Positions 18,727-24,117 of a stretch of DNA of 34,011 bases are shown here, piece by piece. The stretch's first letter is position 1. Each line of letters opens with the position of its first letter. The notes beneath the pieces were generated by a model. It ran no database searches. It was not told the DNA's origin and was given only the letters and a program-made list of their open reading frames with translations. This DNA is from Balneolales bacterium (GTDB taxonomy: Bacteria; Bacteroidota; Rhodothermia; Balneolales; Cyclonatronaceae). The position numbers were made by a program, and so were the translations under genes. The stretch is taken from assembly GCA_007125355.1 (NCBI GenBank), contig SLDG01000164.1, positions 1-34,011 of the forward strand. The letters run 5' to 3'.

Positions 18727-18861
18727 CCTTGAGTTGCTGGTGTTGCTGGAGCTCCTGGTGTTCCGATTATTCCTATAGTGAAATATACCTTAAAGGAGTG
18801 ATACTGCCGTAGGCAAGTTCAATTATTTTGACTTTAAAAAGCTTAATGATTGTTCAACCAA

Positions 18862-18931
18862 GCCTTCGACTACATGCCGGATTTCGCTTTATGCCGATAG
18901 TTACCAAATTATGTCGGCATTCCGCTCAGGC
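18862..18931 (-). repeat. Solo REP-like hairpin unit
   Basis: GCC-TTCGACTAC-ATGCCG ... CGGCAT-TCCGCTCA-GGC; same architecture as units at 23.1-23.7 kb. Confidence 0.8.
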
Positions 18932-19005
18932 GGACTATTTCCTTTTGATACATGAGCAAATAAACAGATTTCAAAGCATCGCAAAAAATCTTACAGCTAC
19001 GATAA

Positions 19006-22420: not shown

Positions 22421-22966
22421 CTATGCTGTAAGTTGTTTCGTCGACATCCATCCCGCATACGCCTGATGAAACGCGGCAAAGCGCATTCTTCCGCCAAACC
22501 ACTGCCAAACCACCGGTTTTGCAAGCATACTTGTCTTTTGGGAAGCCAATGCTCTGTATGAAGAAAATGGATACGTACGGTAATCTGTTGATCGTCCGCA
22601 TCTTTGCGGTAATGTATGGATGTCAAAAACTTTATACACACATTCCTTTTCGGATAAAAGGGCGTTTACCCGCAAATTATCTGTGAAGTCTTTGATGTTC
22701 TCTTCGGGCCATAAGCCTCTCATCTTTACTACGAACATTTTCTGAATAAAAGCTTTCAGCTTCTCCATTTCATGAACGCCGAAGGCTCTTGTTGCAACTA
22801 CACATTCAAAGTTGTTTCCCGCAACCGCATAAGCGCAGGTTTGGAGATTTTGTTCTGTGTAGGTTCTCCAAATGTTGAGAAAGGCGTAACACTCTGAGCG
22901 TGTATTGAAGTTTTCATCGTGAACGCCGGTATATTTTATGTGAAAATAATTGATATCGTGTTTCAT
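22421..22966 (-). CDS. Y1/REP-associated tyrosine transposase (RAYT)-like protein with degenerate HUH motif
   Basis: FHIKYTGVHDENFNTRSECYAFLNIW; CAYAVAGNNFECVV at the usual .AYCLMPNHFHFLI position; DYRTYPFSSYRAL ... WFGGRMRFAAFH matches the RAYT C-terminal signature. Confidence 0.75.
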   Translation of the reverse strand: MKHDINYFHIKYTGVHDENFNTRSECYAFLNIWRTYTEQNLQTCAYAVAGNNFECVVATRAFGVHEMEKLKAFIQKMFVVKMRGLWPEENIKDFTDNLRVNALLSEKECVYKVFDIHTLPQRCGRSTDYRTYPFSSYRALASQKTSMLAKPVVWQWFGGRMRFAAFHQAYAGWMSTKQLTA

Positions 22967-23111
22967 AATTGTTCTCCTCTTTTATAAAGCATGAGACTTG
23001 AAACGCGAAATCCTTACAAAAAAAATTTGGGTAAATCGAAAAAAGTATGCTTTGGGCTGTTTATTTTGAGTTGTAAGATAAATTAAATCAATATTATAAA
23101 AGCATCGTCAA

Positions 23112-23177
23112 CCTGAGCGGAGCTGCGGCTTAGATTGTTAATAAAACATCGGTGCTAACCCGCCGCGTAGTCGAAGG
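23112..23177 (+). repeat. REP-like hairpin unit A1
   Basis: CC-TGAGCGGA-GCTGCGG-(31)-CCGCCGC-GTAGTCGAA-GG. Confidence 0.8.
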
Positions 23178-23220
23178 ACTGCCCGAACAACCCGAAATCG
23201 CATTGAAGCCGTACCTACCA

Positions 23221-23277
23221 ATGGTTCGACGACGGCGGGAAAAGCATTGTGTCCCCATCACAACACCCAAGCCCGCC
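23221..23277 (-). repeat. REP-like hairpin unit A2, one flank degenerate
   Basis: ATGG-TTCGACGAC-GGCGGG-(32)-CCCGCC, without a clear TCCGCTCA box. Confidence 0.6.
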
Positions 23278-23330
23278 TGCTACTAATGACAGAGTTGGTT
23301 TTCCTGAGAAAATAGCTCAATAACCGCTTT

Positions 23331-23350
23331 GGTTTCGGCTCCGCTCAACC
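23331..23350 (-). repeat. Short form of the REP-like unit without inner hairpin
   Basis: GGTTTCGGCTCCGCTCAACC; GGTT/AACC outer stem with TCCGCTCA box. Confidence 0.6.
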
Positions 23351-23477
23351 CACGCTACAACCTCTCTGTCATATCCATCAAATGTATTTAGCGTAAGCGC
23401 AGATATTAAGGCCTCACCATGACGAGGTGGTACGTAGCTCAGGTGTAAACAAAAATACACATCACCATCAGGAGTCA

Positions 23478-23546
23478 GGGTGAGCGGAGCAGCGGTTTGG
23501 GATGTACATAAGTATTGGGATAGTTGCCCGCTGCGTAGTCGAATCC
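23478..23546 (+). repeat. REP-like hairpin unit B1
   Basis: GGG-TGAGCGGA-GCAGCGG-(32)-CCGCTGC-GTAGTCGAA-TCC. Confidence 0.85.
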
Positions 23547-23583
23547 CCTGTTTGGATAAGCAGCGTTCTTGCCTTAATCACCA

Positions 23584-23654
23584 ATGGTTCGACTACATGC
23601 CGGATTGAGTTGGTTGCTCTTAGCGAGTTACGAAGCCGGCATTCCGCTCACCAT
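23584..23654 (-). repeat. REP-like hairpin unit B2, inverted relative to B1
   Basis: ATGG-TTCGACTAC-ATGCCGG-(32)-CCGGCAT-TCCGCTCA-CCAT. Confidence 0.85.
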
Positions 23655-23715
23655 GACGGGGTGGTACGTAACTCAGGTGTAAAAAAAGCGAAGCAAAAAT
23701 AAGGGTTAAGCTACC

Positions 23716-24117
23716 CTACTTATTCGGCTCTAACCCTGCGCGTACCAAGGACTGGAAACCACCAATATTGTACACATTTTCGAAACCGGCGGATCTCATC
23801 ATTCTTGCAGCCTGACCACTGCGATTACCACTTCGGCAATAGAGATAGTACGTTTCGTTTTTGTCTAATGCAGTGACCTTTCTCTGGAACTCACCCGAAA
23901 TCAGATCAAAGTTAAAATCGGTTCCTTTAAGGTGTCCGGCTTTGAATTCGCCGGGTGTACGCACATCAATTAGCACACCGGGCGTGTTAACCCTTGCTTC
24001 CATAAATTGTTGTGGACTCATAGAGTTTCCTTGCCCGATAAATCCTGATAAAAAGTTAAACATTATAAATGCTCCTGCTATTAAGAATGTGTATGTGGTC
24101 ATTTTCTTTAAATCCAT
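23716..24117 (-). CDS. Membrane-anchored single-domain rhodanese
   Basis: LIDVRTPGEFKAGHLKG; active-site loop YCRSGNRSGQAA; N-terminal hydrophobic segment. Confidence 0.92.
   Translation of the reverse strand: MDLKKMTTYTFLIAGAFIMFNFLSGFIGQGNSMSPQQFMEARVNTPGVLIDVRTPGEFKAGHLKGTDFNFDLISGEFQRKVTALDKNETYYLYCRSGNRSGQAARMMRSAGFENVYNIGGFQSLVRAGLEPNK

Follow-up and report, generated by a model that had tools for sequence, protein, structure and literature searches.

The window, a stretch of 34,011 nucleotides, is contig C92 of a genome of 2.84 Mb (85% complete, 362 contigs), and it holds a cluster of four REP-like units (23107-23657) in the alternating order +, -, +, -. This cluster is flanked by two minus-strand genes, i.e., a gene for a rhodanese-domain protein and a 181-aa ORF, while a solitary unit is found downstream of a response regulator-PglZ gene. 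The features considered here are:

18860-18935, minus strand: solitary type B unit (outer stem GCCT/AGGC, inner stem ATGCCG/CGGCAT)
22421-22966, minus strand: RAYT-like gene (181 aa), 141 bp from the cluster
23107-23180, plus strand: REP-like unit of type A (GTC tag, outer stem CCT/AGG, boxes TGAGCGGA and GTAGTCGAA; inner stem GCTGCGG/CCGCCGC with one mismatch; match to model R1 at 23103-23187)
23213-23423, minus strand: REP-like unit of type C (inner stem GGCGGG/CCCGCC, variant boxes TGAGCA and GTCGTCGAA)
23282-23414, plus strand: I1, a 133-bp inserted repeat (ACTAATGACAGAG...GGCCT) sitting inside the type C unit
23331-23350, within I1: short hairpin GGTTTCGGCTCCGCTCAACC (GGTT/AACC form)
23474-23547, plus strand: REP-like unit of type A2 (GTC tag, outer stem GGGT/ATCC, inner stem GCAGCGG/CCGCTGC)
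23584-23657, minus strand: REP-like unit of type B (GTC tag, outer stem ATGGT/ACCAT, inner stem ATGCCGG/CCGGCAT)
23716-24117, minus strand: rhodanese-domain gene, with its 3' end toward the cluster

A direct check of the sequence located the boxes and the inner and outer stems of the original prediction at their positions. That all units share the same boxes, as had been claimed, is true of three cluster units, in which both boxes are exact (23114-23175 and 23481-23543 on the plus strand, 23588-23650 on the minus strand), but not of the GGCGGG/CCCGCC unit, which has variant boxes and is split; outside the cluster, the window contains one more exact two-box unit (18865-18928, minus strand). The inner stem-loops of the cluster are 44-46 nt long, with loops of 31-32 nt (about 31-33 nt across the own genome), and the mismatch of the type A unit is missing from sister copies, in which the inner stem reads GCTGCGG/CCGCAGC (e.g., L007, L016). 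Unit B (23584) and unit A2 (23474) form an HH pair with the tags outward. The GGTT/AACC short form, which had been counted among the units, actually lies inside I1, and neither the unit split by this second repeat nor the neighbouring dead RAYT gene had been mentioned.

In the type C unit (from 23221), I1 splits the 5' box as TGAG|CA, and copies of the same type without interruption are found elsewhere (L007, L009, L017). Among the repeat loci fetched, I1 has 12 full-length copies, 11 of which sit inside type B or C units, at an identical point of the 5' box (GCT|CACC), the remaining one being elsewhere, at a CT|CA site. I1 may either target the repeats or have been amplified along with them. 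The uninterrupted units provide the empty site, and insertion may have duplicated 2 bp (CT). I1 is itself interrupted in at least three copies (L052, L064, L047; e.g., C243:4600-4871), at the same internal position, by a repeat starting with GTGTCAAGTCAAGTCTAATATG, which amounts to nested insertions. Moreover, one I1-bearing stretch is common to G002 (C234:2809-3061) and the own genome (C122:2563-2815), with matching identities in spite of the different genera, and may correspond to a shared, transferred or mis-binned contig.

The search of the host genome for the box pattern, as proposed along with the original prediction, returned 18 exact copies of TGAGCGGA-N25-55-GTAGTCGAA, nine per strand, against none for a reversed control, hence the two-box pattern is not due to chance; with a 621-bp query taken from the cluster, 80 matches were obtained. 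A covariance model, also proposed at the outset, was built from 23 units and used at a threshold of E<=0.01, with 150 candidates scored per genome, so that its counts are lower bounds: at least 85 copies in the own genome, at least 59 in G001, at least 84 in G005 and at least five in G004. With the same number of candidates, it recovered no copies in G002, G003 and G006, nor in four genomes of other families. The exact TGAGCGGA/GTAGTCGAA pattern, searched in 40 relatives, had no copy beyond the own genome, the units of the relatives being revealed by a looser pattern including the GTC tag. In a sample of 299 genomes of the phylum, the two-tier pattern occurs in 16, some of these occurrences being overlapping short forms. 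The suggested comparison with Rfam yielded no family, the scan of the window giving no match above the gathering score, and literature searches with the box sequences returned nothing relevant. Among the repeats listed for the single-contig genome G007 (C1), the first lies at 1.675 Mb and none within the first 1.67 Mb, a possible positional bias.

The units are extragenic: none of the 32 units catalogued in the own genome falls within an ORF of at least 150 aa (0% of unit bases vs. 65% of the flanks). In G001 and G005, which belong to one genus of the host's family, other than the host's own, 48 placements are unidirectional, 19 convergent and five divergent. Inverted pairs with the GTC tags outward account for 17 of the 21 close neighbours, against three with the tags inward and one in tandem, the usual gap being about 25 nt from model end to model end. 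Inverted composites with a BIME/REPIN layout recur (C353, C320 and C92 clusters), and the inverted BIME-like layout of the original prediction is upheld. A terminator-like hairpin (GTGGRGGCTTT..AAAGCCYCC), in which the variation is complementary too, was observed 3' of the repeats at L123, L137 and L104 (G001/G005).

The 181-aa protein has no match in Pfam, NCBIfam or PHROG, while orthologues (38-45% identity) exist in eight of the ten same-family genomes searched, along with weak matches to true RAYTs elsewhere. Its family alignment retains the C-terminal block of RAYTs (YPFSSY, WFGG, FHQ), and the comparison of the family profile with intact RAYTs (hhalign) has a probability of 99.3. When used alone, the profile of the dead RAYT group matched no solved structure; its match to TnpA-REP 4er8 needed the addition of two true RAYTs, and therefore counts little. 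Such homology, combined with a position 141 bp from the cluster and the REPIN-like layout of the repeats, would suit a classical RAYT-driven REP/REPIN system, in which a RAYT, present or past, cuts and pastes single-stranded DNA hairpins, the dead RAYT being its relic or its repressor. However, we regard this explanation as unlikely. First, the HUH motif and the catalytic-tyrosine segment are missing from every aligned family member. Second, orthologues of the gene occur in the repeat-free G002, G003, G006 and G008, but G001 and G005, which are rich in repeats, have none or only weak matches. Third, no RAYT locus examined (L073-L091) adjoins the repeats, including that of the intact RAYT of G005 (L084). 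Finally, a single Y1 transposase of the own genome exceeds the cut-off, an IS200-like protein of 154 aa, and no repeat is visible next to it. More generally, our searches for tyrosine transposases revealed no active one beside the repeats and linked no enzyme to them. Because the gene is not distributed like the repeats, we treat its position as coincidental, at most suggestive, and the RAYT adjacency was rejected as the driver of the repeats on these grounds. The alignment rather indicates a conserved, catalytically dead RAYT derivative, presumably domesticated. Dead RAYT-derived proteins (L073-L080), with tandem paralogues in G006 and G009, make a candidate domesticated DNA-binding protein.

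Regarding the stems, 91% of the pair cells are standard across 23 units of the own genome (71.7% when shuffled, with none of 500 shuffles reaching 91%), a value that falls to 30-48% upon shifting one strand by 1-3 columns, and eight pairs have changed on both sides, some pairs being of the G-U type; yet, as the own units boil down to a few subfamilies, each with a nearly fixed stem, relatedness inflates these numbers and much of the covariation mirrors the subfamilies. This objection is answered by G001 and G005, in which the stems are free yet complementary. Over 61 distinct units, Watson-Crick pairs occupy 118 of the 122 cells of the outer stems (97%; shuffled partners: mean 57%, maximum 69%) and 239 of the 290 cells of the inner stems (82%; mean 41%, maximum 50%). 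Five fully complementary combinations of outer dinucleotides are observed (GC/GC, GG/CC, AC/GT, CC/GG, TC/GA), as well as many mutually unrelated inner stems. The covariation of both stems, as originally predicted, is therefore upheld, and far more strongly by the relatives than by the window. Single-strand folding of individual own units is weakly better than for shuffled sequences (z from -0.3 to -2.0); these have long loops, however, and standard energy rules may miss the contribution of the joint.

Between the two stems, the bases of the joint are nearly invariant in G001 and G005, with T-GA-GC-GCA on the 5' side and GNA-GTC-GA-A on the 3' side. The 5' triplet is GCA in 60 of the 61 units, while the G and A of the 3' triplet are fixed in 61/61, N being A in 42 units, T in 16, G in two and C in one. 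In the own genome, GGA faces GTA, with GCA and GAA as variants. The units of G007 are ladders, in which GNA/GNA steps recur between short Watson-Crick runs up to a terminal GNA triloop, and two successive joints show GNA on both strands, with a free middle base. Tandem sheared G.A pairs in DNA, like GNA/GNA steps, are known to stack as one continuous helix. By analogy, the fixed bases probably are non-canonical steps (GA/GA, GC/G(T)C and GNA/GNA) forming such a helix. Hence, what had been described as a conserved asymmetric internal loop is indeed conserved in sequence, but is better read as a series of non-canonical pairing steps than as an open loop. A simpler short form, TGAGC-GNA-GTCGAA, exists in other families (e.g., G062), so that a two-tier unit resembles a short REP whose GNA tip has been opened by another hairpin. 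The idea that the joint stems from the target-site duplication of a GNA triplet was rejected, since the two GNA copies differ, both in G001/G005 and in the own genome.

Forty repeat regions from each of G001 and G005, two relatives of another genus than the window's genome, were paired by their flanks after masking the repeats, which resulted in ten pairs of sites with at least 1.1 kb of common flank at 80-91% identity. At L123/L178, the alignment extends over the tag, the outer stem, the joint and the following hairpin but not over the tip, which is GACCCGGTACCCCGGGAC on one side and ACACAGCGCAGCTGTGT on the other side. Likewise, differing self-complementary inner hairpins occupy the same flanked site at L137/L158, L121/L174, L119/L159 and L131/L155, the latter pair opposing a seven-base tip to an entire nested repeat. 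Over the ten sites, most of the compared tips differ in length and are unalignable. Nevertheless, an identical unit is found at the orthologous site L104/L146, which demonstrates vertical inheritance, and L139/L165 exhibits a single compensatory change (T-A to C-G). Moreover, the same tip cassettes appear at unrelated loci (e.g., ACGCAGCGCAGCTGCGT five times in G005), and a repeat can be nested in another one (GTCATGCTGAGCGCAG-CCCTGAGCGGAGTCGAAGGG-CGAAGTCGAAGCA at G001:C79). Taken together, these tip sequences favour an exchange of hairpin cassettes over slow stepwise compensation. As the covariation would then largely come from the swapping of ready-made hairpins, it is no proof by itself of base-by-base selection; the selection on a two-helix structure initially put forward would account for a part only, most orthologous changes being wholesale hairpin replacements. 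Tandem arrays of 5'-half repeats, such as (ACGTCATGCTGAGCGCAGTCCCAT)n, were also seen beside complete repeats (L155, L139, L144); these half units lie upstream of the complete repeats in some loci and, at L139/L165, are specific to G001.

The units might alternatively act as RNA, as structures at the 3' ends of transcripts that would serve as terminators, mRNA stabilisers or processing sites and be under selection for RNA structure. Their extragenic position, with few of them between divergent genes in G001 and G005, would agree with such a role, as would the strong covariation of the stems, including some G-U-type pairs, and the terminator-like GGRGGC..GCCYCC hairpins following the repeats in these two genomes. 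But the two orientations are equally represented and inverted pairs occur, the wholesale replacement of tips and the nested copies are reminiscent of mobile DNA, and no Rfam family matches, all of which makes a function as RNA improbable. As for the idea of plain short inverted repeats, whose likeness would be maintained by compensatory mutations one step at a time and not by exchange, it would account for the single compensatory changes at L139/L165, but hardly for unalignable tips of unequal length between flanks 80-91% identical nor for identical cassettes at unrelated loci, and is the least credible option.

In our opinion, the units probably are non-autonomous, extragenic DNA hairpin repeats of the REP type, with a fixed joint and an inner hairpin behaving as an exchangeable cassette. 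Dispersed over the genome, they mostly come in inverted pairs with outward GTC tags, and each would be a hairpin of several tiers made of an outer stem, a joint (T-A, GA/GA, GC/G(T)C, GNA/GNA), an inner stem and a tip. The joint would be equivalent to the TGAGC-GNA-GTCGAA tip of short REPs, opened up by the additional hairpin, and would represent the recognised or structurally required part, with the stems only needing complementarity. At fixed chromosomal sites, the inner cassette would be swapped between repeats. The boxes that the copies have in common would most likely mediate this swap, by strand exchange or template switching while the hairpins are folded in a single DNA strand such as the lagging-strand template. 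We infer this route, as well as the non-canonical helix of the joint and single-stranded DNA as the active form. Much more tentatively, the repeats could make up a tip-exchange system, in which those at fixed sites would serve as sockets, composed of the outer stem and a DNA-specific, non-canonical joint (GA/GA and GNA/GNA steps), and would repeatedly exchange self-complementary cassettes or whole repeats as single-stranded DNA with the help of a putative machinery.

How do these units compare to known families? CGTC-tagged REPs, described by Di Nocera et al. (2013) and including dRS3 of Neisseria, count Bacteroidetes among their host phyla; they bear an unpaired CGTC tag (or TGTC/CCTC) at one end, stems of 8-9 bp, loops of 4-5 nt and a 3' tail fitting CCA, occur predominantly as HH dimers, with heterodimers, and have no dedicated transposase nearby, their mobilising enzyme being not known (PMC3733652). 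Our units share with them the GTC tag at the foot, a stem often starting with AT, the palindromic structure, the extragenic location, the organisation mainly in HH dimers (the 17 outward pairs out of 21), including heterodimers, and the lack of an adjoining active tyrosine transposase gene. In contrast, the tag of the own units, GTC in 29 of 31 in the alignment, is preceded by C in 17 and by A in 14, which means that nearly half of the tags are AGTC. Furthermore, the stems are almost free in sequence and are divided into an outer one of 3-5 bp, followed by the joint, and an inner one of 6-7 bp; the small loop is opened by at least one further hairpin through the GNA/GNA joint; and, in place of the CCA tail, one reads GGACTG, CCATTGG or TCCCCTG in the own genome and GCACGTGG or CCATG in G001/G005. 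Since stem, loop size and tail lie outside the published definition, we do not file the units as members. Yet, while the origin of CGTC-type REPs is unexplained, change is here caught between two species, with the same sites and joints but different self-complementary tips, so that the way REPs gain and change their stems becomes directly testable in these genomes, and their well over a hundred hairpins, with fixed joint bases and variable stems, form a natural library.

GTAG REPs, BIMEs and REPINs are mobilised by RAYT/TnpA-REP (PMC2817692, PMC3116915, PMC6006769). Like them, our units form inverted hairpin pairs between genes and display alternative complementary stems within families, but they lack a GTAG/GT[AG]G foot at the 5' hairpin base, a REPtron and an associated active RAYT; GTAG is only present at the inner 3' joint (GTAGTCGAA), where it varies to GAAG, GCAG or GGAG. 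In Bacteroidetes, the TnpA genes of subclass 2.6 are reported to be flanked by atypical secondary structures (PMC6006769), which resemble our units in their phylum, in the absence of a GT[AG]G foot and in having copies elsewhere in the genome, whereas our units flank no RAYT gene seen here, the comparison being one of descriptions rather than of sequences. The double-hairpin elements of mitochondrial DNA are compact multi-hairpin mobile DNA, in which the structure is kept while the stem sequence varies. Related palindromic repeats are found in organelles (e.g., PMC2670323). The likeness of the double-hairpin elements is in the way of working only, as they are organellar and unrelated in sequence, and we claim no membership. 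Altogether, it is well supported that the units are a real, REP-like and unusually changeable variant of bacterial REP/BIME repeats, and what is new relative to known REPs is the combination of free stems over a fixed joint, nesting and the replacement of tips at orthologous sites.
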